Source: Muribaculaceae bacterium (GTDB taxonomy: Bacteria > Bacteroidota > Bacteroidia > Bacteroidales > Muribaculaceae). From it: a stretch of DNA of 64,000 nt. Location of the stretch: positions 1 to 64,000 of the forward strand of contig JAIDXM010000022.1 of NCBI GenBank assembly GCA_029058745.1, read 5' to 3'. The notes under the pieces are model-generated. The model was not told the origin of the DNA. It saw only the letters and a program-made list of their open reading frames with translations, and did not search any database. Shown piece by piece: positions 3,004 to 47,401 of the stretch (the stretch's first letter is position 1; each line of letters begins with the position of its first letter). A program made the translations under genes and the position numbers.

Positions 3004-3024
3004 ACATGCCGGAGGCATGTCCCC
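3004..3024 (-). repeat. REP-like 7-3-7 palindrome (copy A)
   Basis: Minus strand GGGGACATGCC TCC GGCATGT; matches copies at 40169, 40251, 40356 and 47379. Confidence 0.6.
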
Positions 3025-3071
3025 ACAACCGAGACATGCCTCCATTCTAAAAACAGTTAAAACCTAACATC

Positions 3072-4331
3072 ATGGCTTCAAAAAAAATACTTTGCCCCTA
3101 CTGCTTCGAGGAGTTTGAGAACACTCAGGCCTGGTATCAGTGTGAGAGCGAGGAACGCGACAATGACGGGGACTTCCGTTGCAAACGCGTCACGAGCGAC
3201 GAGTATGACAAATATTGGAAAGGGAAAGACCTCCTGATGCGTAATGTCTGGCAACAGAAGAGCGGATTCTTCGCACGCCTTTCGGGGCCTAAACTCAATG
3301 CCCAGAAATGCCCGCAATGCGGCTATAACTCACGTCGTTTCGTGTGTCCACACTGTTTCAACTGGCTTCCAACCGAAATGATTGAGAACGGTGCGGAGAT
3401 TATCTCTGTAATAGGTAGTCCTTCGAGCGGAAAGACAAATTATATTGTCGCACTTATCCATCAGCTGCGCAAATACGGCTACAAGATGAACCTGCAAGTA
3501 ATTCCAACGCAGCTTTATCGCGATGGTCATAAGGAAGAGTCAACCCAGAACCTTTTCAAAAGAATGGAGTCGCAACTTTTCACAGAAAAAACAGTCCTAC
3601 AGAAAACATCAAAGAAAACAAATGATATTCCGTGGATTTTTCATCTCTCTCAGCCAACTACAGGGAAGAGTATTTATCTCGTATTTTACGACACAGCCGG
3701 TGAAAAATTTACGGATGATATAAAAAATAACACGAAATATCTGAAGGAGTCATCAGCTGTCATATTGATTCTCGACACCTTGTCAATTAACTATATCAAA
3801 GAAATACTTACTAAAAAGGGGCTCCAAGACCTTGGAGGAGCAAGTGCAGACTACAAAGAAATACAAACGGCTCTCAACATGTTCAGAGGCCAATCGGGCG
3901 TTAAAATTGAAAACAAACCGTTTGCTTTTGTATTCAGTAAATTCGATGCCGTCATAGATCATAAGAATGATCTTGATTTTGCTGCCGATGAGTTTGTTAT
4001 CGGTGACAAGAAATCAGATAGCAGCTATATCAAGACAGGGATTCTAAACCTGTCGAAAATCGATTCAATTAGCGAATCTATTGAAGAAGCCCTCTTTGAA
4101 CAATGGGATATGGGAGCTTTGGCAAGTTATGCAAACAACTGGAGCGCGAAGCGTGGCATGCGCGACCCCAATAACCCTGCCAATAAATACAAGTTCTTCG
4201 GTGTCTCCGCCTTCGGCACTATGCCCGATGAGAACGGAGAGCTTGAGAAAGTGGAGCCTTATCGAGTGATGGACCCTCTTGTATGGATTCTCCATAAACT
4301 CGGTCAATTTGATATTCCAACTAAAAAATAA
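3072..4331 (+). CDS. Zinc-ribbon P-loop GTPase (double-GTPase/DO-GTPase2-like)
   Basis: CPYC...CPQCGYNSRRFVCPHC zinc ribbon; GSPSSGKTNY Walker A; LVFYDTAGE (DxxG); FVFSKFDAV (NKxD-like). Confidence 0.75.
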   Translation: MASKKILCPYCFEEFENTQAWYQCESEERDNDGDFRCKRVTSDEYDKYWKGKDLLMRNVWQQKSGFFARLSGPKLNAQKCPQCGYNSRRFVCPHCFNWLPTEMIENGAEIISVIGSPSSGKTNYIVALIHQLRKYGYKMNLQVIPTQLYRDGHKEESTQNLFKRMESQLFTEKTVLQKTSKKTNDIPWIFHLSQPTTGKSIYLVFYDTAGEKFTDDIKNNTKYLKESSAVILILDTLSINYIKEILTKKGLQDLGGASADYKEIQTALNMFRGQSGVKIENKPFAFVFSKFDAVIDHKNDLDFAADEFVIGDKKSDSSYIKTGILNLSKIDSISESIEEALFEQWDMGALASYANNWSAKRGMRDPNNPANKYKFFGVSAFGTMPDENGELEKVEPYRVMDPLVWILHKLGQFDIPTKK

Positions 4332-4339
4332 CCTACGCC

Positions 4340-6811
4340 ATGAGATACGCCCACGTAATTTACAACTCTTCTGAGAAGAGCCAGTCAGGAGCTGTCGGGT
4401 TCGGAGTGAGATGCACCACTGAAGGCACTCCCGTAGAACTGACAGAAGCCATGCAGGACAACGATATCTTCTCTTTCATTGAAGCAGGTCCTGCCCTGAC
4501 CCCGTCTGCACTTGCCGCCAATCCGGATGCAATCCGTCAGATTGTGCCGACATATTTCTTCAAGTCAATCCCTCTGCACGACAAAAGCCGCGCATTCGTG
4601 CTTGGCCGCAAGATTGCCGTGGGCTTCGACTACACTTTCTATCTCAACGGGAAACCGGGACGACTCGGCAACTACGTCGTGGATTCATACGTGTTCCCGC
4701 AACCTCCTACGGCCAGGGAATTCGAAATCCTGCTTGAGGACGCCGACTCCGGAAGCAACCACTTCATCCCGGTGTCACCCTCTCCCACTCCCGACAACCG
4801 TGAGATGATTGAGATTTCACTCGGCCACAAACCATATCTCCCAGTTGAGGAGAGACCTTTCACCTCTCGATCTATGGTTAGGGTGAGTCCGCAGGCTATC
4901 GAACTTCTCTTCTCATTCATACAAAGCAGGAAGGAGGGGAAACCTGTGCTCGTGAAAAGCGATGTCGCATCCCCGCCACGACTTATGGCCGAACTCGCCA
5001 AGCTTGTCCCGGAGAAACAGATTGAGAATCTGACGTTCCTGACAAACCACACGGATGAGGGGAAAAAACAGGGTATCAACATCATTTTCATCAACGAGTT
5101 TTATTCTTTCGAAGTCTTTAAAAAGCAATGGATATGGCTCGACCTTGAAAACGGGGACCGTTGCGAGAGTCCGGAGGCAACCCTGTTCCGCGATAAGGTG
5201 GCGGCATATGTGGCATCCGGGAACTTCGACGCGATACACAAACTCGTGGGGTGGTGCATGTCTGACATGTATGAGAAAGGGAAGGCCTTCCCGACTGAGA
5301 CACAGACACAGCTCTACAACTACATTTACAACTACGATGAATTCCGTCTCCCTCTCATGGCTTCCGACGCGAATCTTCGCAACACCCTCAACGATTATTT
5401 CAAGAGCAATCCGGAAGAGAAACGGAAGTTTGACAAATCGATGCAGGACTGGTTCGGAAATATAGCCGACATCAACGGACTATGGAAATGGATTGACTTT
5501 ATCCTCGCCGTAGGTCCCGTAGATTGTTCTCTCGCAATCAACACCAACCGCCCGGTTATCACCAACGAGATTTTCAAGTCGGCTGATAGCTTCAGCAATT
5601 TCCACAACCGTTTCAAGCCACGTTTCCGCGAGGTGCTGAAGTTTGTTGACAGCAACGCATTCAAGGAGCACGACTCCTTCCTTTCCGAGATGCCGAACGA
5701 CTGGGAAGCCCTCTATCCGCTTTTCTTTTCGGAAAGAGTAGCCGACCACAGGATGCTCGTGGAAAGGATGATTGCCGACAACATCGAGCCTTCGATGAGA
5801 AGCCGCATCGTTGCCAAGGAAATCAGGCCCCCGGAAGCATACATCAACACCCTGGTGGAGATTCTGAAGAATCAACCGGTCAGAAATGAATGGAAAGTGA
5901 CAAAAATTCTGGCTGAGGAACTCTCCAACCAGAACAGGGTGATTCCTGACTTCTTCATGCTTTTCCCCGGGAAAATAGAAGATGGAATCTATAACAGACT
6001 GTTCCACTGGCAACTACAGAATTTCTATCCCAAAGGTGCGGCCGATGCCAGAAAGCTTGCTGACTACCTCATCAGGTTCCAGCGCAACGACATGGCAATG
6101 ACCCTTAACGGCTCCAATGTATTCACCCGCCTCTACTCGGCCATAAAGGAAGCCGTGAAGCGCAAGGAGATGACACGCGACGATGCCGTAAGGATATGCC
6201 GCGCCATGTTCCAGTCTTCTTACGATGCGGCAACCACCAGTCCGTTCCGCCTTCTCGACAAAGTGCTGTGTCACGCCGACATTCACGGGGAGAACAGAGT
6301 GGAACAGATATGGGAAATCTCAAAAGAATTGGGCGACAGGCAGTATCTCGCCACTCTCATTCCTGCCTTCCTGGCAAGCAAAGAGGCGAGCGCTCCCAAG
6401 GAACTCGCAAAAATATGCGATTTCATACTCAAAAATTCCTTGATGTCGAGGGAAGCGCTCACCTCCCTCGCCAAGACCTCCCGAATGGGCAACGAATACT
6501 ATGTCGGGATTCTCCTGCATGACAACCTCAAGCCGCAGGAAGAGCTGGAATTTCTTGTCAACGATGCCGGGATGACCGACGAACAGGCCCTCAACTTCCT
6601 TGAACGCTATTTCCCGGACAGCCACAAGAAGATTCTGAAAAGCCGAAAACCATCGGTGTTCCAGAAAATGTCTGGAATGTTCAAAGGGATGTTCGGAAAG
6701 AAAACTGACACTCCTGAAGAAGACGACGAGGAAACGGATGACACGACAAACGATACCTCCTCTGCCAACGGCAGAAAAGGGAAGGATAATAACCGAAATA
6801 AAAAACACTGA
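4340..6811 (+). CDS. Large GTPase-associated protein (GAP1-like)
   Basis: N-terminus MRYAHVIYNSSEKSQSGAVGFGVRC resembles the GAP1-N family; lies between two GTPase genes; helical C-terminal half. Confidence 0.6.
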   Translation: MRYAHVIYNSSEKSQSGAVGFGVRCTTEGTPVELTEAMQDNDIFSFIEAGPALTPSALAANPDAIRQIVPTYFFKSIPLHDKSRAFVLGRKIAVGFDYTFYLNGKPGRLGNYVVDSYVFPQPPTAREFEILLEDADSGSNHFIPVSPSPTPDNREMIEISLGHKPYLPVEERPFTSRSMVRVSPQAIELLFSFIQSRKEGKPVLVKSDVASPPRLMAELAKLVPEKQIENLTFLTNHTDEGKKQGINIIFINEFYSFEVFKKQWIWLDLENGDRCESPEATLFRDKVAAYVASGNFDAIHKLVGWCMSDMYEKGKAFPTETQTQLYNYIYNYDEFRLPLMASDANLRNTLNDYFKSNPEEKRKFDKSMQDWFGNIADINGLWKWIDFILAVGPVDCSLAINTNRPVITNEIFKSADSFSNFHNRFKPRFREVLKFVDSNAFKEHDSFLSEMPNDWEALYPLFFSERVADHRMLVERMIADNIEPSMRSRIVAKEIRPPEAYINTLVEILKNQPVRNEWKVTKILAEELSNQNRVIPDFFMLFPGKIEDGIYNRLFHWQLQNFYPKGAADARKLADYLIRFQRNDMAMTLNGSNVFTRLYSAIKEAVKRKEMTRDDAVRICRAMFQSSYDAATTSPFRLLDKVLCHADIHGENRVEQIWEISKELGDRQYLATLIPAFLASKEASAPKELAKICDFILKNSLMSREALTSLAKTSRMGNEYYVGILLHDNLKPQEELEFLVNDAGMTDEQALNFLERYFPDSHKKILKSRKPSVFQKMSGMFKGMFGKKTDTPEEDDEETDDTTNDTSSANGRKGKDNNRNKKH

Positions 6812-6813
6812 CC

Positions 6814-8850
6814 ATGAAACGACTTCTGAACATTCTGATGCTGTTTCTCCTGGCGCTATCATTCTCGCCGGGAATTTCAGCCGCCGAATTCGGTGAACAT
6901 CCGGAAAGGTGCAGCCAACGATATGTGGTGACTCCCGGAAAGAAACTTAACGTGCGCACAAAACCCTCCACAAAAGGGAAGCTCATCTATCAGCTCCGTC
7001 CGGGAGACGTGGTGTATATCGACTCCTTGCGTGTCACCACAGCCGGAGGGTATGACTGGATATCAATCAACGACAGATGGGGCCAGGGATTCCCGCAGAC
7101 AGGCTACGTGACAAACCTCAACCGTTTCACTGCGGAGCCGAACCCTCTCTATGACCCTCCCACTGAGGAACAGATGAAAATCGAGGATGCCGTGGAGAGT
7201 TCGCAAGCCGTGGCCAAATGGATTATGCTTGCGCTCACAATCATATTCGCCATATGGTTCATATGGGCTTATTTCGCCAACGAAGGGAAGGAAAAGCTTA
7301 TCGGCTACAGGCTGTATGGAATGAGAAAGACATTCTTCTTCAACTCGCAACCCTACAAGTCGGTAATCTACATCACCCTGTTCCTCATGGCCGCCATCGC
7401 GGCATCGGTGGTGGCGCTTATGGCCATCGGCGGAGTGGTGTTCCTCTTTCTATGGATTGTCAAGATTCTGTGCTACGCGGTGGTATGGATTGGCATAATA
7501 CTCTGCATAGCATGCGCCATCGCCACTGTGTGCGGGGCTTTCGTGGCAGTCGTGGGTGTCCTTATAGGAGGCGCCATATGGTATTACGATGATAAAATCG
7601 AGAGTTTCGCGGAAGCATGCGCCGACACAGGGCTCAGGTTTTTCAACGAGTTCAACATCTTCGGATTCACCGTTGACCTATCAATACAGTATTGGCAGCC
7701 GGCTCTCATTGCGGTGGCCACTCCTATCGCCCTTTTCCTCGCACTTGCCGTGATATGGCTCCTCGCCGCAGGAGCGTTGATTCTGTTTGAGAAAATAATG
7801 ACCAAACGCTACAGCATCAAGCATCCGTGTCCCCACTGCCAGCAACCGTCGGAACCTGCCACCTACATGTCGAAGGGAGCCAACGGATATGAATATATCC
7901 CCAACGACATTCAGTTGCGTCCCGGAATGTATGGACTATTCCATATCACGCACCCCGTCACAGGAGAGAGGATGCCCACGATGATTCTCAACGGACGCGA
8001 CAAGATGCCGCGTGAATGTGCCAACTGCGGCAAGCGCATCCAGGCCGACGAGGGCACGGAACTGCATGTGGCAATGGTCGGAACAGCACAGTCTGGCAAG
8101 AGCACTCTCACCTACAGGATGATTGCCGAGATTTTCTCTCGCGCAGGGGCCGACAAGGTGGATTTCACTGACGCACGCAACACCATCAGAGATCGTGAGA
8201 TGGAAAAGAAAATCAAGTCAATCAGTAGTAAAGGATACATTTCCGATGATGATATGCCGGCGAAAACCGCAGTACAGGACACTGCCTCAACGCAGCTCAT
8301 CATCAAGAGAAACCACCTCCCGGTGCCTTACAGACTTTTCATCAACGATGTGGGCGGAGAGCTTTTCGACCCTGAACACAAGTCGCAGAAATCGGACGCG
8401 ACACGGTTTTTCCGCAACGTCGATTCCATTCTCATGATGATCGACCCTGTGACAACCGACCTCTCTGACTGCGACCCTTCCGACGATTTCAAGGAATGGG
8501 TGGAGAAATTCGACAAGGACGTGGCCGTGAAGCTACGTGTGAAAGACATCCAGGACACAATCGACAACCAGATTGACCAGCACGGCAACAAGCACAAGAG
8601 AATACATCTCAATATCGTGTTGCCGAAGAAGGACCTCGGATATATCCCGGACCACATCAGACATGACTCGCAGGAAGACCTGAAGAGATATATGACTGAG
8701 GAGATGGGACTCGGCGACCTGCTGAATTGGAGCAACAGGTTCGCATCAGTGTCATTCCACGCCATTGGGGCAATCTCAAAAGGTAAGGAGGCAAATATCA
8801 CCCCTCTTATCGATCATGTAATCGTGGGTCAGCTTGGCATAAAAATCTGA
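6814..8850 (+). CDS. SH3b, multi-TM, zinc-ribbon, P-loop GTPase membrane protein (DO-GTPase1-like)
   Basis: Signal peptide; YVVTPGKKLNVRTKPSTKGKLIYQLRPGD SH3b; several hydrophobic helices; CPHC...CANC; MVGTAQSGKSTLTY Walker A; LFINDVGGE. Confidence 0.75.
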   Translation: MKRLLNILMLFLLALSFSPGISAAEFGEHPERCSQRYVVTPGKKLNVRTKPSTKGKLIYQLRPGDVVYIDSLRVTTAGGYDWISINDRWGQGFPQTGYVTNLNRFTAEPNPLYDPPTEEQMKIEDAVESSQAVAKWIMLALTIIFAIWFIWAYFANEGKEKLIGYRLYGMRKTFFFNSQPYKSVIYITLFLMAAIAASVVALMAIGGVVFLFLWIVKILCYAVVWIGIILCIACAIATVCGAFVAVVGVLIGGAIWYYDDKIESFAEACADTGLRFFNEFNIFGFTVDLSIQYWQPALIAVATPIALFLALAVIWLLAAGALILFEKIMTKRYSIKHPCPHCQQPSEPATYMSKGANGYEYIPNDIQLRPGMYGLFHITHPVTGERMPTMILNGRDKMPRECANCGKRIQADEGTELHVAMVGTAQSGKSTLTYRMIAEIFSRAGADKVDFTDARNTIRDREMEKKIKSISSKGYISDDDMPAKTAVQDTASTQLIIKRNHLPVPYRLFINDVGGELFDPEHKSQKSDATRFFRNVDSILMMIDPVTTDLSDCDPSDDFKEWVEKFDKDVAVKLRVKDIQDTIDNQIDQHGNKHKRIHLNIVLPKKDLGYIPDHIRHDSQEDLKRYMTEEMGLGDLLNWSNRFASVSFHAIGAISKGKEANITPLIDHVIVGQLGIKI

Positions 8851-8886
8851 CAGCATAACCGGTCATACCGGAAACCTTATACGGCA

Positions 8887-8921
8887 GGGGTCATATCATA
8901 ACCGGGTTATGATATGACCCC
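8887..8921 (+). terminator. Perfect 17-bp inverted repeat after the GTPase operon
   Basis: GGGGTCATATCATAACC G GGTTATGATATGACCCC. Confidence 0.65.
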
Positions 8922-8998
8922 GCTCCTTTCTCCCCCTCCCTTCATGCCAACCTTCGAACGCCGCTGTTTGTTCTATCTTCGAGCAAACAAGTTTTCCC

Positions 8999-10027
8999 AT
9001 GGCAGTAAACACCATATTCACCCGTTACCTCAAGGAGCTGAAGGTGCCACACACGGCATACTATTCCGATTCAATGTTCCACGGCATGACTTTCAAGTCG
9101 CTCTACGGTCTTTCGCATCTGCTGAAAACCTACGGGATAGATAACGAAGGAATGAGGTTGTCTGATAAAGACGAACTTACCAAGATGCCGGTTCCGTTTC
9201 TCGCGCAGACCAAAGACGGCATTTTCGTGATTGTAAAAGAAATCGCCCCCTCTAACAGCTCTGTAACCTACGACTCTCTGGGAGAAACTGAGACAATAGA
9301 CCTGGAGAGCTTCAAGAAAGGATGGAACGGGATAGCCCTTGTGGCCTTCCCTGATGAATCATCGCGTGAGCCTGACTATGCATCCCATCATCTCACCGAG
9401 ATTGTGTCGCGCATGTCGGGTTATCTGCTCGCGCTCTCCGCAATCGCTGTGTTCATCTACTTCTTTATCACCCGCCACGTATATTCCCACCTCTCCACAG
9501 TGCTGATAACGCTTCTCGACGGTGGCGGACTATATCTCTCATACCTTCTCCTCCAGAAATCTCTCAATATCCACACAGCCGCCTCCGACCGCGTGTGCGG
9601 TGTGCTGGAGAAAGGGGGATGCGACACGGTGATGTCGCTGAAAGTGTCGAAACTGTTCGGTGTCTTTTCCTGGAGCGAGGTAGGGTTCGGATATTTCAGT
9701 GTGTCGATGGCCACCCTCCTGCTGTTTCCGCATCTGTGGGGTTCACTCGCCCTCTGCAACCTATGCTGTCTCCCCTACACGTTCTGGAGCATATGGTACC
9801 AGAAATTCCGTGCCCGACACTGGTGCACACTGTGTGTAGGCGTACAGTCAACCCTCTGGCTACTCTTCTTCTGTTATCTTGCGGGAGGATGGTTTCACGC
9901 GGCGTTCCCGATTCATCCCGACATATGCATCCTCATCGCCGTATATGTGCTGTCGGTGCTCTTCTTAAATATGATTCTCCGAATATTCAAAAATCTCCCC
10001 ACCCATGAAAAAAATAACCATGCCTGA
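8999..10027 (+). CDS. VKOR-family disulfide oxidoreductase with an N-terminal C39-peptidase-like domain lacking the catalytic Cys
   Basis: CGVLEKGGCDTVM, LCNLCCLPYTFW and CTLC in a multi-TM domain; N-terminal half has C39-like layout without the N-terminal Cys. Confidence 0.75.
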   Translation: MAVNTIFTRYLKELKVPHTAYYSDSMFHGMTFKSLYGLSHLLKTYGIDNEGMRLSDKDELTKMPVPFLAQTKDGIFVIVKEIAPSNSSVTYDSLGETETIDLESFKKGWNGIALVAFPDESSREPDYASHHLTEIVSRMSGYLLALSAIAVFIYFFITRHVYSHLSTVLITLLDGGGLYLSYLLLQKSLNIHTAASDRVCGVLEKGGCDTVMSLKVSKLFGVFSWSEVGFGYFSVSMATLLLFPHLWGSLALCNLCCLPYTFWSIWYQKFRARHWCTLCVGVQSTLWLLFFCYLAGGWFHAAFPIHPDICILIAVYVLSVLFLNMILRIFKNLPTHEKNNHA

Positions 10028-10145
10028 ACTTAAAAGCGCGACTATACTGAAAGCCGCCGAAATGAATATGATCCACTTCGGCGGCAACCATTCCCCTCTC
10101 ACTCCAGACCGTCTGAAAGCCATCGCGACTTCCGGGAAGTCCTGA
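10005..10145 (+). CDS. Small ORF (46 aa) with an internal Gly-Gly; candidate peptide precursor
   Basis: MKKITMPELKSATILKAAEMNMIHFGGNHSPLTPDRLKAIATSGKS; overlaps the VKOR 3' end in another frame; below the ORF-track cutoff. Confidence 0.4.
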   Translation: MKKITMPELKSATILKAAEMNMIHFGGNHSPLTPDRLKAIATSGKS

Positions 10146-10192
10146 ATTCCGGCTTACTCAGAATTAAAAGAGAAACGGGATATATGTGATTT

Positions 10193-11428
10193 CTATACTT
10201 CCTTGGATTCGGCGTTCAGTTCAGCGAGCCTGTTCAATGCCTCCATGTAATAATAGTCGGCATAGATAATCGACGCGTCAATTTCCGAGCCTGCCGGATG
10301 ATGACCTGTGGAATGCAACAGGAACGATGAATGGTCATCATCCGAACGATATGCCGGAGAGGAAAGCGACGCAAGCATCTTACGCGAGAGTCCGACATAC
10401 CTGTCAGCCTGCTCCTTCCCTACATATTTGGAGAGTTCGAGAAGAGCAGAGGCCACCACGCATGCCGCCGAGGCATCGCGGGGCGCGTCTGGAATCGAGG
10501 GGTCGTCGAAATCCCAATATGGCACATAATCCTCCGGAAGACGAGAAAGGTAAGCGTCTGTCACCTTCTGCGCGAACTCCAGGAACCTCGGGTCGCGGGT
10601 CTCCCTATACACCACCGTATATCCGTATATCGCCCACGACTGTCCACGTGCCCACGTGCTGTTGTCGGCATATCCCTGATGGGTGCATCCTTTGATAAAC
10701 TCACCTGACTCCGGGTCATAAACAGCCACATGATAGCATGTGCCGTCGGGACGGAAATGATGCTCCATAGTGGTTTCCGCATGTCTCACCGCCATGTCAT
10801 ACAGTCCCTTGTCTCCCCCGTTGCGCGCTGCCCAGAAAAGCATCTCCAGATTTATCATGGTGTCCATGATGGTGTTGTGCCCGCCAAACATCTCCACATT
10901 CCTTGGCCATGCCATAAGCGTGCCGACCTTTGGATTGAATAGCGTGGCCAAAGAATCGGCCGCCGCTATAATCGTTGACTTATAGCTCTCGTCGCCTGTC
11001 ACCTCATAACCCTTCCCATAGCTGCAGAAAAACAGGAATCCAAGATCATGGTCGAATACAGGGCGGTCGAGGATGGGGCCTATTTGCGCGGTGAATAATT
11101 CCGCCTGCCGCCTTATCTCCGGGTCTTTTGTCTTCGCATAGTCCATCCAGAGGATTCCGGGCCAAAAACCGCTGCACCATTCCTCGGCACAAGACTTGCG
11201 GCAATGCCACTCCTTGGAATCACCCTCCACATTACGCGGCATCATCGTATAGTCGATGGAATCGCCATCACCCCCGAGACGCGACAACGCGAGACTCACC
11301 TTGTCGTGGCAACGTCCAAGCTCCCTGTCCGTATCCACAACCCCCTCAGCGGAGGCCTCGGCACAGGAATGAATCATAACACCTGCCACTACGCTTAAAA
11401 ATCCTACTGCTATATGTTTTATATTCAT
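10193..11428 (-). CDS. GH88-family unsaturated glucuronyl hydrolase
   Basis: HNTIMDTMINLEMLFWAA and THQGYADNSTWARGQSWAIYGY; signal peptide. Confidence 0.85.
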   Translation of the reverse strand: MNIKHIAVGFLSVVAGVMIHSCAEASAEGVVDTDRELGRCHDKVSLALSRLGGDGDSIDYTMMPRNVEGDSKEWHCRKSCAEEWCSGFWPGILWMDYAKTKDPEIRRQAELFTAQIGPILDRPVFDHDLGFLFFCSYGKGYEVTGDESYKSTIIAAADSLATLFNPKVGTLMAWPRNVEMFGGHNTIMDTMINLEMLFWAARNGGDKGLYDMAVRHAETTMEHHFRPDGTCYHVAVYDPESGEFIKGCTHQGYADNSTWARGQSWAIYGYTVVYRETRDPRFLEFAQKVTDAYLSRLPEDYVPYWDFDDPSIPDAPRDASAACVVASALLELSKYVGKEQADRYVGLSRKMLASLSSPAYRSDDDHSSFLLHSTGHHPAGSEIDASIIYADYYYMEALNRLAELNAESKEV

Positions 11429-11508
11429 TATGATATTGGTTAATTATTTTCGAGTACCGTTCTCCGTCATAAGTTTATGCATTAGAAAATGCCCAAAATC
11501 TAAAGCCC

Positions 11509-11601
11509 AATGACTGACGACTAATGTCTAAAAAGCAATGTCTAAAGACTAATGACTATTGACTAATGACTATTGACTAATGACTAATGACTAACGACTA
11601 A
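11509..11601. repeat. Heptamer-type array (minus-strand TTAGTCA/TTAGTCG/ATAGTCA)
   Basis: gactaatgactattgactaatgactattgactaatgactaatgactaacgactaa; includes the GH43 stop codon. Confidence 0.8.
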
Positions 11602-13237: not shown

Positions 13238-13241
13238 CTTA

Positions 13242-37074: not shown

Positions 37075-37082
37075 AGTAAGTG

Positions 37083-37310: not shown

Positions 37311-40121
37311 TCAGTTTCCGTAGGGTTTTTGGAAATCAATCACCGCCGAATCCCTCCAGTAGAAACTCTCGGGAGAATCGGGGGTGGAGGGTGAATAACC
37401 GGAGAAATTCACCACATGTCCCCATAGTTCCGGCACCTGCGTCCTGATTCCCTCCAGCACACACTTGGCCACCTGGGATGCCCCGAAGGTATTGAAGTGG
37501 GTGTTGTCGGCAAGGGCCTTCTCCTGGCCGGGATATGTCCCGGCGGGATAGTGCACGAATGCCTTCTTCGACCCTTCCACGCCCATGGCTCCGTAGAGTG
37601 TGCGTGTCATCGCGTCAAGGTCAATGAGGGGCACATTCTCGCGGCGGGCCACTTCCTTCATGGCGGCGGGATAGTCGCCGTGGGTGTCGCGCAGGGTGCC
37701 GTCTTTCTCGAAATGACGGCGGGCCGTAGGTGTGAGCAACACCGGGTTGAGTCCGGCGGCGCGGGCACGGTCAATCATTGTCTTCAGGTTGTGGGTATAG
37801 TTATACCATGCTCCCGAACCCGGGGCCTTGTCTTTCTCGTCGTTGTGGCCGAACTCTATGAACACCCAGTCACCGGGCTTCGCCATCGACATCACCTTGT
37901 CGAATCTCTTCGTGGCCAGGAATGAGGAGGTGCGTTCTCCGCTCTCGGCATTGTTGGCCACGGAGATTGTCTCGTCGAAATATGCCGGGATAATCTGTCC
38001 CCAGCTTGCCCAGGGCTCGCCGGTCTGGTCCACCACCGTGCTGTCGCCGCAGAAGAAGAGTGTGGTGACACTGTCGTTCTCCTCCACCGGAACGATGGTG
38101 ACGCTTTCCACTGCCGGAGCCTCTCCGGTGAATTCAAACGTCAGCTTGTCATCCCAGGTAGGGGTACCCACCTCGCGGGGATTGATTCTCACGGAGTCCT
38201 TGAGGTTGATGCCCCGGCTGCGCTTGTTGACAATGAAGGAACGCTCTTCGAACTTCCCTTTCTTCGTGTCAACGCGGTCGAGCATGAGACGGCGGCTCTC
38301 CGCCCTCACCACTGTAGAGCCTTTACGCTTCTTGTCGCCGAACCTGACAGTAACCTTATAGTTGCCGTCGGGCACCCTAACGGAGAAGAAATAAGGTTTG
38401 GAGCCGTCCTTCGAGGGCGCGGTCTTGTAGTCGTAGCCATAACCGTCAAACTCATTGTAGGCCGGCACAGTCGCGTCGAGCTTGTAGCTGTATTCCACAG
38501 GCTTAAGATAATCCTTGAGCTTGCAGTCGGTGCCCCGGAGTCCCTCGGCGATGCTTGCCGCGTTGAGACGCGCACCCTTCAGTGAAGTGTGGGTATGGTC
38601 GTTCTTATAATATTCGGGAGTCTTCTCAGGGCCGATGGCCTGGAATTTCTTCCCGGAGATGGCGTTGAGGTCGATATAGTAGGCCCCGGCCTGCTGCGCG
38701 GCCTGGCGAGCCCAGAGTCCGTAGCTGTTGGCGTTGCTCTCTATCTTCCCCTTCTCCCATTTGTTGCGGGGAGTGTGGCTGAGCACGATTGGAATGGCCC
38801 CTTTCTCCTTGCAGTCCATGATGAACTTGCGGATATACCATCCGTAGGTGTAGATTACCTGGTTCTTCCCTGTGGCCTCCATCTTGAACACCTTGCTTTC
38901 CGGGCCGGCCCCGTGGAGCTCGCCGCGTGCCTTCCCGGTGTTGATGTCGCCTCCGTCGTTGTGGCCGAACTGCATGATTACGTAGTCGCCGGGCTGGAGC
39001 GCGTTATATACCTTGTCCCAACGCCCTTCGTCGAGGAATGTGCGTGCGCTTCTTCCGGCCATGGCATGATTCTCCACGGAGATGCTGTCGAGATTGAAGA
39101 GTTCGGCAATCACGCTGCCCCATCCCCACATGCTGTCGCCGTTGTCCTTGTTCTTGACGGTGCTGTCGCCGATTGTGAAGAGCACTGGCTGTCCCGGCTT
39201 ACGCGATGAACCGGTCTCGGTATCCACCGGGGCGGGGAGGAGATAGTCTTTCAGCTCCACACCCTCAAGGCCGCGCAGTCCCTCCACAGCCGATTCCGCG
39301 TTGACACGGGCGCCAAATGCAGAAGTGTGTATGCGGTCGATATAGAACATCGTCTTGACTTTCTCTTTGCCGAATTTCTCAAACTTGGTGGCGGTGATGT
39401 CGTTCAGGTCAACAAACGGCACGTTCTCGGCCTCTGCCACCTGCTTTGCCCAAAGTCCGAAAGTCTTGTTGACGCGGGTCACTATGGTGCTGTCCTTATC
39501 CACCCAAGCGTTTCTCGGAGTCAGGGAGAAGAGGATTGGCTTGCCGCCACGGGCTTTCACCTCGCGCACGTAACGGCGCATGTATTCCCCGTAGGTATAT
39601 ACGGTGTCGGGTTTTCCGGTCTCCTTGATGGTTACGGCCAGGGTCTCCTTGCCGATTCCGGGTATAGAGGCGCGTGCGCGTCCGCTGTCGTATGGGCCGT
39701 TGTCGTTGTGGCCAAGCTCGATTATCACCCAGTCGCCGGGACGGATACCCTCGAGGACATCCTTCCAGAGCACGTTGTAGAACGTGCGGCTGCTCATCCC
39801 TCCGAGGGCATGGTTCTCAACCGTGATTTTATCCTGGTCAAAGTATTCGGGCATGAAGTACCCCCACCCCCATTGACCGTTGTCGCCGTTGCCGAGAGTG
39901 CCGGTTCTCATCGTGGAATTACCCACAAGGAAAAGCACAGGGTTGTTACCCTTACGTGTGGAACCCGAAATCGGGCGCACGGTACGTGCCTTGTTGAGGC
40001 TGTCAAGCGTATTGTCAATCACGCCGTTGACATCCTCCATCGGAGAAGCGATTTTCTCCTGGCTCCACGCCGCCGGCATTGAGATGGCCATGGAAGCCAA
40101 TAGTATGGAGATTTTTTTCAT
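37311..40121 (-). CDS. Triple SGNH/GDSL (CE12 rhamnogalacturonan-acetylesterase-like) protein
   Basis: Three block I motifs (FLVGNSTM, FTIGDSTV, FFCGDSTV), three GHND motifs, three D-x(1-3)-H motifs. Confidence 0.88.
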   Translation of the reverse strand: MKKISILLASMAISMPAAWSQEKIASPMEDVNGVIDNTLDSLNKARTVRPISGSTRKGNNPVLFLVGNSTMRTGTLGNGDNGQWGWGYFMPEYFDQDKITVENHALGGMSSRTFYNVLWKDVLEGIRPGDWVIIELGHNDNGPYDSGRARASIPGIGKETLAVTIKETGKPDTVYTYGEYMRRYVREVKARGGKPILFSLTPRNAWVDKDSTIVTRVNKTFGLWAKQVAEAENVPFVDLNDITATKFEKFGKEKVKTMFYIDRIHTSAFGARVNAESAVEGLRGLEGVELKDYLLPAPVDTETGSSRKPGQPVLFTIGDSTVKNKDNGDSMWGWGSVIAELFNLDSISVENHAMAGRSARTFLDEGRWDKVYNALQPGDYVIMQFGHNDGGDINTGKARGELHGAGPESKVFKMEATGKNQVIYTYGWYIRKFIMDCKEKGAIPIVLSHTPRNKWEKGKIESNANSYGLWARQAAQQAGAYYIDLNAISGKKFQAIGPEKTPEYYKNDHTHTSLKGARLNAASIAEGLRGTDCKLKDYLKPVEYSYKLDATVPAYNEFDGYGYDYKTAPSKDGSKPYFFSVRVPDGNYKVTVRFGDKKRKGSTVVRAESRRLMLDRVDTKKGKFEERSFIVNKRSRGINLKDSVRINPREVGTPTWDDKLTFEFTGEAPAVESVTIVPVEENDSVTTLFFCGDSTVVDQTGEPWASWGQIIPAYFDETISVANNAESGERTSSFLATKRFDKVMSMAKPGDWVFIEFGHNDEKDKAPGSGAWYNYTHNLKTMIDRARAAGLNPVLLTPTARRHFEKDGTLRDTHGDYPAAMKEVARRENVPLIDLDAMTRTLYGAMGVEGSKKAFVHYPAGTYPGQEKALADNTHFNTFGASQVAKCVLEGIRTQVPELWGHVVNFSGYSPSTPDSPESFYWRDSAVIDFQKPYGN

Positions 40122-40160
40122 TAGTTGTTAGTTGTTAGTTAGTTGTTAGCCGTTAGTTGG
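40120..40160. repeat. Third heptamer-type array (minus-strand AACTAAC)
   Basis: ttagttgttagttgttagttagttgttagccgttagttgg, immediately upstream of the CE12-like start codon. Confidence 0.7.
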
Positions 40161-40164
40161 ATAT

Positions 40165-40185
40165 AGGGACATGCCTTTGGCATGT
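40165..40185 (+). repeat. REP-like palindrome copy B
   Basis: taGGGACATGCC TTT GGCATGTTG. Confidence 0.7.
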
Positions 40186-40244
40186 TGAATCGCATTCTGT
40201 AGAATCGCTCAGATTTCCTACGTGCTTTCTATAAATGCTCTCCT

Positions 40245-40267
40245 GTAGGGACATGCCTTTGGCATGT
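40245..40267 (+). repeat. REP-like palindrome copy C, with GTAG
   Basis: GTAGGG ACATGCC TTT GGCATGT. Confidence 0.75.
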
Positions 40268-40355
40268 TGAATCGGGCCTACTGTGGGATTTCCTATATGC
40301 TCTTCAATCTGTATTCAAGCAGAAGAAGACTGTAATCATTCGGCAACCCACTCCT

Positions 40356-40378
40356 ACATGCCAAAGGCATGTCCCTAC
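40356..40378 (-). repeat. REP-like palindrome copy D, inverted, with GTAG
   Basis: Minus strand GTAGGG ACATGCC TTT GGCATGT. Confidence 0.75.
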
Positions 40379-40465
40379 ATTTATAGTCTGTAAACGCTTT
40401 CGTGATTCATCATGTCATGGCATCGGTTCTATCCTGACGCGCCACTGATGACCAATCCAAAAACC

Positions 40466-42361
40466 TTATTTAATCACTGTACCACGGAACTTGGTACCCT
40501 TCTTGAGGTCGGGACCGAAATAGAACCCGGCCTCGGCAGGCTGGTTGTAACCGATATTCTCATTGGCTACGCTCGTGCGATAGACGGGATCCTCCATGAA
40601 TGTGTGGAACCTGTAGTCTGTCGGGGCAGTAGTCACATAAATACGGAGATTGTTGCTGTCGTTGGTGCGCATCAGAACTTCCTCGCGCCAGTCGCCCAGG
40701 ATGTCGGCATGCAGACAGGGATTGGCTTTTGTGCCGTTGTTCCACATCGTGCCCTCGAATTCGGCGATTACGTCGCAGCCGCCGGTCTCGGGATTATACT
40801 TGAACACCTTGTTCTTGTCGAGAAGTTCACGGAGAAGGTCGCCGTCCCACCACACGGCCATGTTGACAGGCACTCCGGCGGCAACCTCGCTCTTGAATTC
40901 CATCTTCGGGGAAATCAGATTACCCTTGAAGTCCCTTACGCCTCCGGAATTGGGCGACCATACCTCCACACCCTCATGATTGGGATCGATGTCGGCGGCC
41001 ATGCAGCGGCCTATGTCCTTGTTGCTCTTGAACTGGAAGAGAACCTCTCCTGTGGCGGCGTCGCGCATTGAGGAACCGTCAATCTTATTCTCATGGCAGC
41101 ACCACACATAATATTTCTCATTGTTGACATCGGAGATGAGATGTATGGCGTCGCCATGATACATCCCGGTAGAGTAGAGACCCTTTCCGTCATGGTCAAC
41201 GGTCATCTGCCCGTAGATAATCTCGTCGCATCCGTCGCCATCGACATCGGCCACGCGCAGGTTATGGTTCCCCTGTCCGGCATATTTCCCATTGCCGGGG
41301 TCATTGCTGTCGAACACCCAACGCACCTTCAGGTCTTTGCCGTCCCAGTCGTAGGCGGCGAGCACGCTGCGGGTGTAGTAGCCACGACACATCACCGCAG
41401 AAGGTTTCACCCCGTCGAGATATGCGACGGCAGCCAAGAAGCGATCGGAACGGTTGGCATAGCTGTCGCCCCAATCCTTGAGTTCCCCTCGCGGAGGGAT
41501 ATAGTCGGCAGTGGCCATCGCGGCTCCTGTCTTGCCATTGAAGACGGTGACATACTCCGGCCCGGAAACCACACGACCCTTCATGTTGCGGAAGTCGGCA
41601 CGACGGTCGCCGATTATCTTCCCGGTGCCGTCCTGAGTGCCGTCGGCGGTCTTGCAAATCAGCTCCGCGCATCCGTCGCCGTCGAAGTCAGCCACGAGGA
41701 ACTGTGTGTAGTGCGCCCCGGAACGGATGTTCTCACCGAGGTCTATTCTCCACAGGCGTGTGCCGTCGAGCTTGTAGCAATCGATAAGAGTGGGTCCGGT
41801 GAATCCGTCATGAGCGTTGTCGTGAGAGTTCGTGGGATCCCATTTCAGGAATATCTCATACTGGCCGTCGCCATCCACGTCTCCCACCGACGCGTCGTTG
41901 GCCGTATAGAAATACTCCTTGCCGAACGGGTCAACACCGAGAGCCGGCTTGTCGAGAGGGATATTGACATATCCGAGAGGCGCGTTCTCCGGGAGTGTGA
42001 ACTCGCCCGACGATTTCCCCTTGGATGCCTTCACCTCATATTTCGCGGCCTTGGAGCCCTTATAATTGTCTTTGAAGAAAGTGACGTCCTTGATTGGTGA
42101 CTTGTTGACCTTCTTGCCATCACGATAAACGTCGAACGTCTGGTTTTCCGGATCGGATGAGAGGTAGCGCCACGACACCATCACTGTCTCCGGATTCTCT
42201 CTGAGAGCCACAACTCCCCTGTCGAGTTTCTCCATCTGAATCTTGGAGAAATCATACTTACCCTGCGAATACACGGGCGCTGACGCGAGGGCCATCATCG
42301 ACACCGCCGCGCAGAGTCCGCGCACGGAGAAAAGCCCCTTTATCACTCTTGAATCTGTCAT
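40466..42361 (-). CDS. PL11-family rhamnogalacturonan lyase
   Basis: MEKLDRGVVALRENPETVMVSWRYLSSDP; DASVGDVDGDGQYEIFLKWDPTNSHDN; VADFDGDGCAELICKTADGTQDGTG. Confidence 0.95.
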   Translation of the reverse strand: MTDSRVIKGLFSVRGLCAAVSMMALASAPVYSQGKYDFSKIQMEKLDRGVVALRENPETVMVSWRYLSSDPENQTFDVYRDGKKVNKSPIKDVTFFKDNYKGSKAAKYEVKASKGKSSGEFTLPENAPLGYVNIPLDKPALGVDPFGKEYFYTANDASVGDVDGDGQYEIFLKWDPTNSHDNAHDGFTGPTLIDCYKLDGTRLWRIDLGENIRSGAHYTQFLVADFDGDGCAELICKTADGTQDGTGKIIGDRRADFRNMKGRVVSGPEYVTVFNGKTGAAMATADYIPPRGELKDWGDSYANRSDRFLAAVAYLDGVKPSAVMCRGYYTRSVLAAYDWDGKDLKVRWVFDSNDPGNGKYAGQGNHNLRVADVDGDGCDEIIYGQMTVDHDGKGLYSTGMYHGDAIHLISDVNNEKYYVWCCHENKIDGSSMRDAATGEVLFQFKSNKDIGRCMAADIDPNHEGVEVWSPNSGGVRDFKGNLISPKMEFKSEVAAGVPVNMAVWWDGDLLRELLDKNKVFKYNPETGGCDVIAEFEGTMWNNGTKANPCLHADILGDWREEVLMRTNDSNNLRIYVTTAPTDYRFHTFMEDPVYRTSVANENIGYNQPAEAGFYFGPDLKKGTKFRGTVIK

Positions 42362-42455
42362 CTTATGTATAAGGTTGGTTTGATTTTCGGTTTTGTGAGT
42401 TTTATGGAATCGGCATGTCGGAATCTCACATGCCGCGTTGATTTCGTTCCGAACG

Positions 42456-42488
42456 CAAAATTATAAAAAACTCTCCTTTTATTCCAAA
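42456..42488 (-). promoter_or_regulatory. Promoter candidate for PL11
   Basis: Minus strand TTTG - 21 nt - TAATTTTG. Confidence 0.6.
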
Positions 42489-42647
42489 GATTTTCATTCA
42501 TAAATAATTGAACATATGTCAAATTTCTTCATTTTTCTGTCATGGTATCTGATATGCAATATCTCTCCATACTTTTTGACAGATTTGGCAGGAGAATGAC
42601 TGATTTCTCCACGTCCTGGCATCATGCGACGACATGCCTGAATGAAA

Positions 42648-42679
42648 GGGGCGGCATCCCACATGTGGAATGCCGCCCC
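42648..42679 (-). terminator. Strong GC-rich hairpin after the PL11/PATR gene
   Basis: GGGGCGGCATCCCACATGTGGAATGCCGCCCC. Confidence 0.65.
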
Positions 42680-42701
42680 AAGCATGACATATTGCGTAAC
42701 G

Positions 42702-45700
42702 TCAGAATTGAATCTTCATAGTCTCCGACTGTTTTCCTGTCTCAAGCGTGATGACATAGATTCCCTGACGGAGATTTAGTTCGCGGCGTGCCGCCTCTGA
42801 CACATCGGATTTGGTGGACTCGAATGTGCCAAGCAATACACCCGTGATGTCAAACACCTTGCATGTCACCACAGCGGAATCCTCAATCATGCCCACTCCT
42901 GAAGACGCCGCCACTCTGAGCACGCCGGAGGCGTCCTGGAGTCCGGTGATGTCCCATTCAAGACCCTCCGGGAGTTCGGGGAGCTCGAAGGTTGGCTCGC
43001 CCTTGAAGTTTTCGGTAATCCAGAGACGGAACTCATCTCCCACTGCAGGGACATAATCGGGATTCATCTCAATCGCCACCGTACCGTTCAAGGAAAGGGT
43101 GCCCTTGACACTTATATAGGAGCAGTCATTGCTCTTTCCGGCCACTCGGAGATACAGGCTCAACGTGGCGCCCTGGTTGACGGTCACATTCCCGGTAGAG
43201 AAAACTGGTCCGTAACGATATGGATTGCTGTCTGAATACGAACCGGGTTCGAGCACACCGCCACTTGAAACCGTTATGTCAGCGACAGAGCCGCGACCGC
43301 GAAGTTTTCCGTTCCCGCCAATGGTGAGCGGTCTGTCAAGGAAGACAGTGTTATACGGAGTCTTTGAGGCCATCAGGCTGAGAGTCCCGTCGTTTACGGT
43401 GAATGTGGATATCCCGCTCATAAGCTTCGTCAGCCTCATGTCGCATTTACCCGTCTTCACCACCTTGGGATTCCCGGAGAAAGTTCCGGTAAAGCCTACT
43501 GTCGTGTCATCGTTGCCTATAGTCAGGGTTCCGGTGCCGTTGTATGCTCCCGATCCCTTGAGGTTGGCAACCTTCATATCGTATGTCTGAGCGTTGAAGG
43601 TTGCGCCCGAAGCGATATTGAGGGTAGCGTATGGCATCCCATACGTGTTGTCCCACTTGAAATCCGGGTCATAGCTGCTTCCGCGTTTGAAATGGGCCGC
43701 GATAAGCTCTCCTTTGAAATCCGACCAGTTCCCTTTGAGGTCACATCTTGGACCTGCCGCATATACGCTCAACGTCCCTTCTCCTGTCAGTTTTCCGGTA
43801 TATGTGCATCGTGTGTCAAGATAAAGCGACCCGCTGTTGCCGGCGCCGACATAATAATTTGTGGCGTTGTTGCTGTAGGTATAAATATCCGCTGGATCGT
43901 AAAGGGAACCCTTCACGAATTCCACCGTATTCGCGATTGAAATTGCCGATGAAGATGTCTCCGAAGCATTCACCACACCATCCTCAATCACAAGACGGGT
44001 CATTGTATTGCCTGCGGCAAGATTGAGTGTACCTTTGCCTCGTTTGTAAAGGAACTGGCCGATGTCGGCTGTCTGTATGGCTGACGTGGTGGTAAGTTCA
44101 ACGCCATCCGGCACTTCAAGCGCGGAATTTCCCATTCTCATGGTGATGCGCTGTCCGAGTGTGCCTGAGGTGTTCACTGCCAATGTCGCGTCACGGCCAA
44201 GATAGATGCGTGAGTTTATGTCAGAGAGCGCGCCTACATCCGTGCCTATATTATTGGCAAACACTCCGGCCACAAGCTTGCCGCCGTTGATGTATGTTCC
44301 ACCCGTGTAGCTGTTGATGTTGTTGACAGTAAGCGTTCCTGTCCCTTCTTTCACAAGAGACCCGGCACCCACAATCTGTCCGTCGCCGGAGAGTGTATAG
44401 TCTTTCTCGTTGTTGCTGAAAGTCACACTTGCCGGTTTGAGGCGTCCGGAAATGACCACATCCGTATTCTCCGCAGAGTCGTCGAATGTCACGGCGTCAC
44501 CGGGCACAAAAACATCAGCCTCCCCTGTCTCTGTGTCTTTGAATGTCAGTGAGTGGTCGAGGTCCCACAGTGCTGTCTCGCCGCCGGCCCAGGTCTTCAC
44601 TCCTGCGTCATATGCCGAAAGCTCCACATAAAGCTTGCCGTCCTCATAGAGGAGAGACTTCTTCATGTCGTCGATTCCGAGAATCACCAGGTCAGACAGA
44701 TTGCCGTCAATCTCCCCTACCTCACCAATCAGGTATTTTCCCATAGGCACTGTCTCGCTCCCTTCTGCAGGATGGTCGGTGAACCTGATGATGGGCTGGA
44801 GATATTCCGGGCCGTTGGTCCAGTCTTTTGTCTCTATGGTGAGCTTGGACGCATTCACCTTGTCGATTGTCTCATCTGCGAAAATGTCGAGTTCCACGAT
44901 GGCCCCGAATCCGAGAGTAAGGTCACCTACGGTGACAGTCCCCGCCTTGGTGTCGTCGCCAAGTCTGAGCACAGACGCATACTCCATGTCGAGACCTTTC
45001 GGAAGGTTGAGCGACGATGTCTCGAGCACGCCGAAACGGTTCAGCCATACCGGACTGTTGGTGAGTTCGCCGTCCAGGGCGACTGTACCTGCCCATACGT
45101 CGGTATTTCCGCTGTAAGTGTGTGTCCCGGCGGGCATCACAAGCTTGCCGTCACCCTGCTTTATGAGTTTCATATCTCCGGTGAAGAGTCCGGAAGAAAT
45201 GGTATGGGTGAAAGTCTGCTTCGTGATGTTGCTATTGGAGTTGTGACCCTCAATCCATATGGGGGCATTGACAGTCAGCACGGATGGAGAGACTCCGTCG
45301 GCGGCGGATATTGTCATGTCGCCTGTCTCGCACACAATCACATGCTTACCGTTGAGGGAAGCGTCGATGGTGCCGTTGTTGGCCACCTCAGTGCGTCCGG
45401 TCATCGTGAGAGGAGCCGGAGGAACGGTGATGTCCTCAAACTGGCTGAGCGCGAAGCTCACGTGGGGCGGCTGGTTGTAGCCGCACATCTGCCACACCAT
45501 CGCGTTGCGGTACTGATGGTCATACCATAGTGAATAGATGCGGTACTCTGTCGGGATATCGGTGGAATAGATGCGGATGTTGTTGTCGGCGTCGCGCATA
45601 ATATACTCCTCGCGCCAGTCGCCGAGGATATCACCCTGGAAGCATGGTGTTCCCTTCGTGTCGTTGTTGGTCTTGCTTCCTTCAAGGAGGGCGATCCTTC

Positions 45701-47285
45701 CCTCTCTCGGCTTATATATCGCGCCTGCGGTATTCTTTCCGTTGTCATAGTCAAACGACTCGTCGCAGAGGTCGCCATCCCAGAACACCCTGAAATTCTG
45801 TGTGATTGATACTGATGATTTGCTGTCGCCGACAACTGATTTATGGGATGCCCCGCCGATCAGATTGTCATCGTGGGCTGACACTCCCTCTGAACCCGGA
45901 TATTCATCTATGAAGTTACCCATGTTGGCACGACCGTCGTCACTTCCGCTTACTGTGCGGTAATATATTTTCGATGTCGTCGCGTCACGGTAGTTGTTGT
46001 TGGGAAGATCCTCGTTGCAGGCAAAAATCTCCTGACCCCAGGTGTAAGGGTCGAAGTCTCCGCAATGCTGCGCGTCGCCATGTCCGAGTCCTGTGGTGGA
46101 GAGGCCGAACCCATTGTCGTCAATCACCATTGAACCATAGACAATCTCGTCACGTCCATCCCAATCGACATCCGCAATTCCCATGTTGTGGTACCCTTGT
46201 CCATACCATGCGCCACCTATGTCGTTCCATCTCCAACGTTCCACAAGCTTATGGCTCGCAGGGTCTATATCATAGGTAATGAATTTGTGTTTCGTATAGA
46301 TTCCTCGTCCGAGGAAAAGACTCGGCTTGCGCCCGTCAAGATAGGGAGCGGCGAAGAAATACTTGCTGCTACGGTGGCCATAGCCGTCGCCCCATTCATT
46401 GTTCACGAGAGCATCGTAGGCGCTTCCGCTCAGAATCCCGTTGGGATTGTTGGCTTCCTCCACTCTCACAAGCGGGAAGTCTATACATTCATACGGTTCA
46501 CAGGTAAGACCGTCGGCATATACGAGATATTCCTTCCCCCAGTGCATGAACCATTGGCCGTCGGGCCAAGTGTTGCCACGATAGTTGATGGACGCGTCGC
46601 CTACGGTGTAGGTGGTGCCGTCGGCCTTGTGTATCACAGTGCCGTCGGCTGCGCGGAACACAACCTCGGCCCTTCCGTCGCCATCCCAGTCATAAGCGAT
46701 GATATTGATTTCGTTGTTCTGGAAATCACCCATGTTCGGACCGAAATTAATCCACCATTTCACCGTGCCATCCATCTCCAGACACTCCACCACTGTGAAT
46801 ATTCCGTCATCGCCATTGTGGAAGTCAGTGCTTGTATTGTCATACTTCATGATGATTTCAAGCTCGCCATCGCCATCCACGTCCGCCACAGTAGCATCAT
46901 TTGGCACAAGGGCGGTCTTGATTTCTGCCGGGTGTTTCGGGGTGATGATAGTGTAGTTCTTCTCCCACACCTTCACAGGGTCGCAGGCGGCTGACTCCAC
47001 ACCATCCACCACGGCCCTCACCGTATATGTAGCGTCGAGTGAGCCGGACGGGTCTGTGAAATTGGATACTTTCAGCGGTGTGCTGTTTAGTTTTGTGGAG
47101 CCACGGTATATGTTATACTCCGTGCCCTCCCACTCTTCGGCTGTGATACGCCACGAGCAATAAACGCCGCCATCGGTCTTCATGGCCACCAGTCCGCGGC
47201 CAAGCACGTCGGTGACACGCTGAGCCATAATCCCCGGTGCGATAGCCATTGAAGCCGCCATGGCGAGCAGAATCTTTCTTCTCAT
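42702..47285 (-). CDS. PL11-type lyase fused to autotransporter-type (PATR-like) beta-helix repeats and a T9SS-like C-terminal domain
   Basis: N-terminal DVLGRGLVAMKTDGGVYCSWRITAEEW, DATVADVDGDGELEIIMKYD; repeats GTGTLTVNNINSYTGGTYINGGKLVAG; tail CKVFDITGVLLGTFES...LRQGIYVITLETGKQSETMKIQF. Confidence 0.88.
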   Translation of the reverse strand: MRRKILLAMAASMAIAPGIMAQRVTDVLGRGLVAMKTDGGVYCSWRITAEEWEGTEYNIYRGSTKLNSTPLKVSNFTDPSGSLDATYTVRAVVDGVESAACDPVKVWEKNYTIITPKHPAEIKTALVPNDATVADVDGDGELEIIMKYDNTSTDFHNGDDGIFTVVECLEMDGTVKWWINFGPNMGDFQNNEINIIAYDWDGDGRAEVVFRAADGTVIHKADGTTYTVGDASINYRGNTWPDGQWFMHWGKEYLVYADGLTCEPYECIDFPLVRVEEANNPNGILSGSAYDALVNNEWGDGYGHRSSKYFFAAPYLDGRKPSLFLGRGIYTKHKFITYDIDPASHKLVERWRWNDIGGAWYGQGYHNMGIADVDWDGRDEIVYGSMVIDDNGFGLSTTGLGHGDAQHCGDFDPYTWGQEIFACNEDLPNNNYRDATTSKIYYRTVSGSDDGRANMGNFIDEYPGSEGVSAHDDNLIGGASHKSVVGDSKSSVSITQNFRVFWDGDLCDESFDYDNGKNTAGAIYKPREGRIALLEGSKTNNDTKGTPCFQGDILGDWREEYIMRDADNNIRIYSTDIPTEYRIYSLWYDHQYRNAMVWQMCGYNQPPHVSFALSQFEDITVPPAPLTMTGRTEVANNGTIDASLNGKHVIVCETGDMTISAADGVSPSVLTVNAPIWIEGHNSNSNITKQTFTHTISSGLFTGDMKLIKQGDGKLVMPAGTHTYSGNTDVWAGTVALDGELTNSPVWLNRFGVLETSSLNLPKGLDMEYASVLRLGDDTKAGTVTVGDLTLGFGAIVELDIFADETIDKVNASKLTIETKDWTNGPEYLQPIIRFTDHPAEGSETVPMGKYLIGEVGEIDGNLSDLVILGIDDMKKSLLYEDGKLYVELSAYDAGVKTWAGGETALWDLDHSLTFKDTETGEADVFVPGDAVTFDDSAENTDVVISGRLKPASVTFSNNEKDYTLSGDGQIVGAGSLVKEGTGTLTVNNINSYTGGTYINGGKLVAGVFANNIGTDVGALSDINSRIYLGRDATLAVNTSGTLGQRITMRMGNSALEVPDGVELTTTSAIQTADIGQFLYKRGKGTLNLAAGNTMTRLVIEDGVVNASETSSSAISIANTVEFVKGSLYDPADIYTYSNNATNYYVGAGNSGSLYLDTRCTYTGKLTGEGTLSVYAAGPRCDLKGNWSDFKGELIAAHFKRGSSYDPDFKWDNTYGMPYATLNIASGATFNAQTYDMKVANLKGSGAYNGTGTLTIGNDDTTVGFTGTFSGNPKVVKTGKCDMRLTKLMSGISTFTVNDGTLSLMASKTPYNTVFLDRPLTIGGNGKLRGRGSVADITVSSGGVLEPGSYSDSNPYRYGPVFSTGNVTVNQGATLSLYLRVAGKSNDCSYISVKGTLSLNGTVAIEMNPDYVPAVGDEFRLWITENFKGEPTFELPELPEGLEWDITGLQDASGVLRVAASSGVGMIEDSAVVTCKVFDITGVLLGTFESTKSDVSEAARRELNLRQGIYVITLETGKQSETMKIQF

Positions 47286-47378
47286 AATGTAAGATTGCTA
47301 TAGAAAAAATAAATAATTGTCAATAATAGTTATAGAAAACCCTCAATCGGTTTGTGTATCCGTTATTTATGTATCCCA

Positions 47379-47401
47379 ACATGCCGGAGGCACGTCTCTA
47401 C
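47379..47401 (-). repeat. REP-like palindrome copy E, with GTAG
   Basis: Minus strand GTAGAG ACGTGCC TCC GGCATGTTG. Confidence 0.65.

Follow-up and report, generated by a model that had tools for sequence, protein, structure and literature searches.

GTAG-tagged REPs organised as REPINs in a Muribaculaceae genome and their probable small RAYT partner in related genomes

Introduction

Studies have shown that the REPINs of Pseudomonas fluorescens SBW25 are intergenic inverted doublets of REPs, which have preferred spacings (71 and 110 bp are common) and fold into a single hairpin (PMC3116915). GTAG-tagged palindromic repeats have been described as dispersed, intergenic short hairpins with GTAG directly at their 5' side, and the same survey listed Bacteroidetes under the CGTC-tagged family only (PMC3733652). 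RAYTs of subclass 2.4 (Bertels group 4) have already been described in Bacteroidetes, together with in-frame REPs within their genes, and RAYT loss has been named as a cause of RAYT-less REPs (PMC6006769). Our literature search found neither the ACATGCC REP sequence and its spread through Muribaculaceae nor a paper joining Muribaculaceae with repetitive extragenic palindromes.

In this study, the window was a stretch of 64,000 nucleotides from a Muribaculaceae bacterium, and the assembly holding it comprises 3.17 Mb in 111 contigs and is 92.75% complete. We are fairly confident that the palindromes of the window belong to a GTAG-tagged REP family which spread as REPINs, that the cognate transposase is a subclass 2.4-type RAYT of about 175 aa found in relatives, that the REPs of the window are most likely orphans, and that a nearby 345-aa RAYT-like gene is a neighbour and not the partner.

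Results and Discussion

A dispersed and intergenic REP family

The first-pass annotation had noticed five palindromes sharing ACRTGCC-TYY-GGCATGT in the window, at 3004, 40169, 40251, 40356 and 47379. All five matched ACRTGCCNNNGGCAYGT exactly, and in the shuffled window, with two mismatches tolerated, the mean number of sites was 0.62 and five were never reached. The copies and their layout were as follows:

3004 to 3026, minus strand: REP copy A; hairpin 3004-3020 (ACATGCC-TCC-GGCATGT on the minus strand), tag GTGGGG at 3021-3026, intergenic region 2955-3071
3034 to 3043: degenerate half-REP ACATGCCTCC, adjoining copy A
40163 to 40185, plus strand: REP copy B; tag ATAGGG at 40163-40168, hairpin 40169-40185 with loop TTT, intergenic region 40122-40465
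40245 to 40267, plus strand: REP copy C, left half of a REPIN; tag GTAGGG at 40245-40250, hairpin 40251-40267
40356 to 40378, minus strand: REP copy D, right half of the REPIN; hairpin 40356-40372, tag GTAGGG at 40373-40378
40245 to 40378: REPIN of copies C and D, an inverted pair with GTAG at both outer ends
47379 to 47401, minus strand: REP copy E; hairpin 47379-47395 (ACGTGCC-TCC-GGCATGT), tag GTAGAG at 47396-47401, intergenic region 47286-47889

The hexamers agree with the earlier reading that three copies carry GTAG and the other two GTGG and ATAG. The stem of copy E has one G-T position that is not a Watson-Crick pair, and this copy is among the more degenerate ones.

A genome-wide count and a look at intergenic enrichment had been proposed for these palindromes, and both came out in favour of a REP family. 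The whole assembly held 72 exact ACRTGCCNNNGGCAYGT sites, compared with 0 for the reversed-pattern control. The tag and flank statistics were taken from DNA stretches around the copies, in which the 72 sites gave 74 rows oriented by the pyrimidine loop, two sites being readable on both strands. GTAG stood directly 5' in 61 of the 74 rows and GTAGGG in 60, giving the consensus AT-GTAGGG-ACATGCC-TYY-GGCATGT; over all rows, conservation ran from the AT preceding GTAG through a weak TTGATTG 3' of the stem and ended there. ORFs of at least 90 aa excluded 59 of the 72 sites though they covered 86% of the sampled DNA (P~1e-38), and most of the remaining 13 sites lay within ORFs of about 100 aa, which are probably spurious. 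Divergent gene pairs flanked just 3 of 46 sites, so REPs are rare there, and all five palindromes of the window lay between called genes.

These results place the five palindromes in a REP family with GTAG tags, dispersed between genes and of a type that RAYTs handle, and in the position of the tag, the dispersal and the intergenic placement they resemble the GTAG-tagged repeats surveyed before (PMC3733652). The tag had been read as a mark of RAYT-handled REPs in proteobacteria; the tag itself was borne out, and RAYT-handled GTAG REPs also occur outside proteobacteria, since subclass 2.4 has been described in Bacteroidetes (PMC6006769).

REPs paired into REPINs

The ACATGCC REPs are organised as REPINs. 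Inverted pairs with GTAG outward accounted for 38 of the 72 copies, and this over-represented arrangement was found in 19 of the 30 neighbour pairs lying at most 130 bp apart, with spacing modes of 69 and 97 bp. As single-stranded DNA, the REPIN of copies C and D (40243-40380) was predicted to fold into one long hairpin of -35.6 kcal/mol, compared with -13.9 +/- 2.5 kcal/mol for shuffled sequences (z=-8.75). Copy B is an additional REP beside this REPIN, and copies A and E are single. The REPINs of SBW25 (PMC3116915) are similar in being intergenic inverted doublets with preferred spacing and a single hairpin fold; they differ in having another stem sequence, far more copies and a host of another phylum, and the partner RAYT was not found in the assembly of the window.

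By analogy with such systems, the REPINs would have been mobile in the past. The genes next to copy A are the same in the same-genus genomes G567 and G548, where the gap between the aligned blocks is much shorter (39 bp in G567 compared with 135 bp here; also shorter in G548). This is compatible with an insertion at copy A, with flanks that are just 67-76% identical.

About a dozen single-REP copies (L034, L046, L050, L058, L060 and others) lie within an element of about 105 bp of the form TAGTC...GACTA with inner complementary arms, and copy E (47379) retains part of one arm of it.

A small RAYT as the probable partner

The GTDB species genomes were scanned for GTAGGGACATGCCNNNGGCATGT, and most of the matches came from MAGs that bore the label Muribaculaceae, Porphyromonadaceae or Bacteroidales. 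In a phylum sample, the REP pattern occurred in 2 of 396 genomes, one of which was the window genome, and within the family it was patchy (14 of 149 genomes). In one Chloroflexi MAG (L180, L202), the pattern was read on both strands 6 bp apart and thus makes up GTAGGGACATGCCNNNGGCATGTCCCTAC, a palindrome of full symmetry ('double foot' form).

At several GTAGGGACATGCCNNNGGCATGT loci, a small Y1 protein lay between or around the REPs. This small RAYT has about 175 aa, the N-terminus MEQYRK.PRARFLDY and the motifs NHIH, WQ and YIxNNVAKW. Its profile matched NCBIfam REP_Tyr_transpos at 1.3e-14 (54 bits, under the cut-off of 80) and, among solved structures, only the E. coli TnpA_REP (PDB 4ER8, E=3.7e-7). 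The two are alike in the HUH-Y1 core; TnpA_REP belongs to subclass 2.2 and the E. coli REP stem is bulged, whereas the ACATGCC REPs have perfect 7-bp stems. Judged by its motifs, the small RAYT has features of subclass 2.4 (NH[IFV]H, WQ, YIxNNP and in-frame REPs within the gene; PMC6006769): it carries NHIH or NHLH, WQ and YIxNN, with the final P changed to V in this clade.

ACATGCC or ACGTGCC REPs adjoined the small RAYT, and often lay inside it, at L168/L243 (G137), L246 (G058), L244 (G148), L245 (G113), L247 (G091), L248 (G136), L154/L287 (G563) and L206/L285 (G576). The last two genomes belong to the genus of the window and carry the small RAYT amid 11 (G563) and 46 (G576) exact REP copies. 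The small RAYTs flanked by ACATGCC-like REPs formed one clade (support 99/96), with the exception of a distant Ignavibacteriae protein (L169), and other small RAYTs went with other REP types, such as GACGCACG, GACGCGA, GAGACGCGA, GACATGG and more.

Besides being bracketed by the REP in relatives, the small RAYT co-occurred with it. Homologs of at least 55% identity were present in 8 of the 149 family genomes, 7 of which were REP-positive (OR 134, p=9e-8, at a threshold chosen after inspection of the data and among genomes that share ancestry and are not independent observations). The eighth genome, G142, had the related REP ACATCGC, and in G582, of the window's genus, a homolog at 55% identity went with the different REP GACATGG.

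Another candidate partner was a Y1 transposase in G078, located 475 bp from a REP; it was rejected, as it has features of subclass 1.2 (YIQNQYEHH), a class that is not REP-associated. The Y1 proteins of G128, G007 and G136 had motifs of the same kind.

REPs inside the small-RAYT genes

A REP was found within 19 small-RAYT genes, in most of them around codons 77-105, in the stretch that separates the HuH motif from WQ. In all 18 genes that had flanking REPs in reach, it was of the same type as these or nearly so. The match spans about nine REP types (L246, L154, L269 and others). The antisense in-gene ACATGCC REP encodes (T/S)CQRHVPT. From the constant coding region and the covariation with the flanks, we speculate, with considerable doubt, that the in-gene REP might be a functional part of a subclass 2.4-type system, for example by forming a hairpin, either in the gene or in its mRNA, that serves self-regulation, and that REPINs might outlive RAYT loss as orphans, as in the window genome.

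Probable orphan REPs in the window genome

The small RAYT was not found in the assembly of the window genome, and in another high-copy genome, G054, which has 33 exact REP copies, the gene is frameshifted; the REPs of the window are therefore best read as orphans. Apparently intact, decayed and not-found states of the small RAYT occur side by side in the family, and the window genome looks like the not-found state, unless the gene lies in the unassembled part. With 92.75% completeness, 111 contigs and several REPs near contig ends, the gene may have escaped assembly rather than been lost.

Several REPs of G000 are close to a contig end, at a few hundred bases or less, on contigs C25, C57, C28, C12, C69 and C20, and C20, C25 and C57 have the flank TTTTTGCATATATATCTGTGACAGATGACT in common. 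The shared flank and these positions suggest that the assembly breaks at a long repeat which the REPs adjoin.

The 345-aa RAYT-like gene near copy E

A RAYT gene had been placed 0.5 kb from copy E, and its start indeed lies 489 bp from the tag of this copy. The features around it were as follows:

47610 to 47624: palindrome CGTTTC-AAA-GAAACG upstream of the gene, of a family different from the ACATGCC REPs
47785 to 47805: palindrome GTGGAG-CGTTTC-TTT-GAAACG, about 100 bp upstream of the gene
47890 to 48927, plus strand: gene of a 345-aa Y1/HUH RAYT-like protein with the HuH motif DHLH, YVTDNP and a conserved C-terminal domain

The protein matched Pfam Y1_Tnp (E=9.5e-7) and NCBIfam REP_Tyr_transpos (E=1.1e-7, 31.8 bits, under the cut-off of 80). 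Its distance, its RAYT-like character and the presence of window-type RAYTs without a small RAYT in the REP-bearing genomes G000, G078 and G128 (53, 30 and 13 REPs) speak for it as the partner of the ACATGCC REPs, or as a transposase that took them over in trans. However, we consider this improbable. Homologs (E<=1e-3) occurred in 49 of the 149 family genomes; in the association test, 39 genomes counted as carrying a strong homolog, and only 5 of the 14 REP-positive genomes had one (Fisher OR 1.65, p=0.52). The ACATGCC hairpin was found within about 1.5 kb of none of 29 homologous RAYT loci (L092-L120). Near the gene itself, the only ACATGCC REP is the single degenerate copy E upstream; the gene adjoins the CGTTTC palindromes, and the two homologs nearest to it (40% identity) lie between hairpins of their own, AGCAAAC-TTCA-GTTTGC. 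G054 retains its 33 REPs without a match to the window-type RAYT. The absence of association, the 29 loci, the other palindrome pair and the presence of ACATGCC REPs at a different RAYT of about 175 aa leave the pairing unsupported, and the gene is a neighbour of copy E. A window-type RAYT may nevertheless help in trans, as among the four high-copy genomes that lack an intact small RAYT three carry one, and there may be a second route, as G078 and G128 are rich in REPs and the small RAYT was not found in them.

CGTTTC-N3-GAAACG was rejected as a dispersed family, with three sites genome-wide, two of them upstream of the gene and one unrelated. The pair at 47610-47805 is about 180 bp apart, and a short direct repeat, CTTCATCAGAATGCATTCCATCAAAGGG, occurs twice in the interval. 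Pfam detected two Y1 proteins in the window genome (47890-48927; L061:2391-3341). Both belong to the 345-aa family, and no RAYT subclass in Table 1 of PMC6006769 fits their motifs (DHLH, F in place of the usual W, Y[VI]..NP). The C-terminal domain of this family (G.VLVSPFIS..EK...G...I....F..R.KP...F..C..GRLL....) had no Pfam match in the 345-aa protein and, in a homolog, none in Pfam, NCBIfam or PDB; a resemblance to DprA-like domains, seen by eye, is a lead only. The single-sequence structure prediction of the 345-aa protein was unusable (pLDDT 34.7).

Other explanations of the palindromes

E. coli REPs often gain protein-binding or terminator roles. The ACATGCC palindromes could likewise be a selected genomic signal, either a protein-binding site or a transcription terminator, which multiplied through selection without being mobile, and their intergenic placement and depletion between divergent genes would fit. 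We consider this very improbable in view of the patchy presence in the family and phylum, the paired layout with fixed spacings, the siting around a transposase gene with matching REP type, and the extra DNA at copy A compared with G567 and G548. It is equally hard to believe that the REPs are passengers of the MITE-like element of about 105 bp, with an unrelated transposase moving it: the window genome does contain a set of single-REP copies with the common flanks TAGTC..GTATTTGTGCATTTC and ..TGCACATTTATTTTGTG..GACTATA, but this is one layout among several, REPINs of 45-114 bp spacing have no TAGTC/GACTA ends, and conservation over all copies drops beyond GTAG..GGCATGTTTGAT.

Proposed mechanism and meaning

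For a REPIN family with a small RAYT as its cognate, we propose the following by analogy with proteobacterial systems. The REPIN would fold into a hairpin in single-stranded DNA, and the Y1 HUH transposase would bind each REP hairpin, such as the GTAGGGACATGCC hairpins. The GTAG tag would guide the RAYT, and the single-stranded REP, such as GTAGGGACATGCCTTTGGCATGT, would be cut and rejoined. The RAYT of about 175 aa probably co-evolved with the ACATGCC REP, and relatives keep REP copies next to the gene and in some cases within it. The population in the window genome most likely remains from a RAYT that has since been lost or is located in the unassembled part.

Both in-gene REPs and the loss of RAYTs were known before, and the ACATGCC REP is a further member of the known REP/REPIN kind with its partner corrected. 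The natural error was to pair the REPs with the nearest RAYT; flanking sequence, clade and co-occurrence yielded a better-supported partner. The matched in-gene REPs provide a ready table showing which REP type goes with which RAYT type, for use in studies of recognition beyond proteobacteria. Since one family offers genomes in which the RAYT looks intact, is frameshifted or was not found, the fate of REPINs after RAYT loss becomes traceable.
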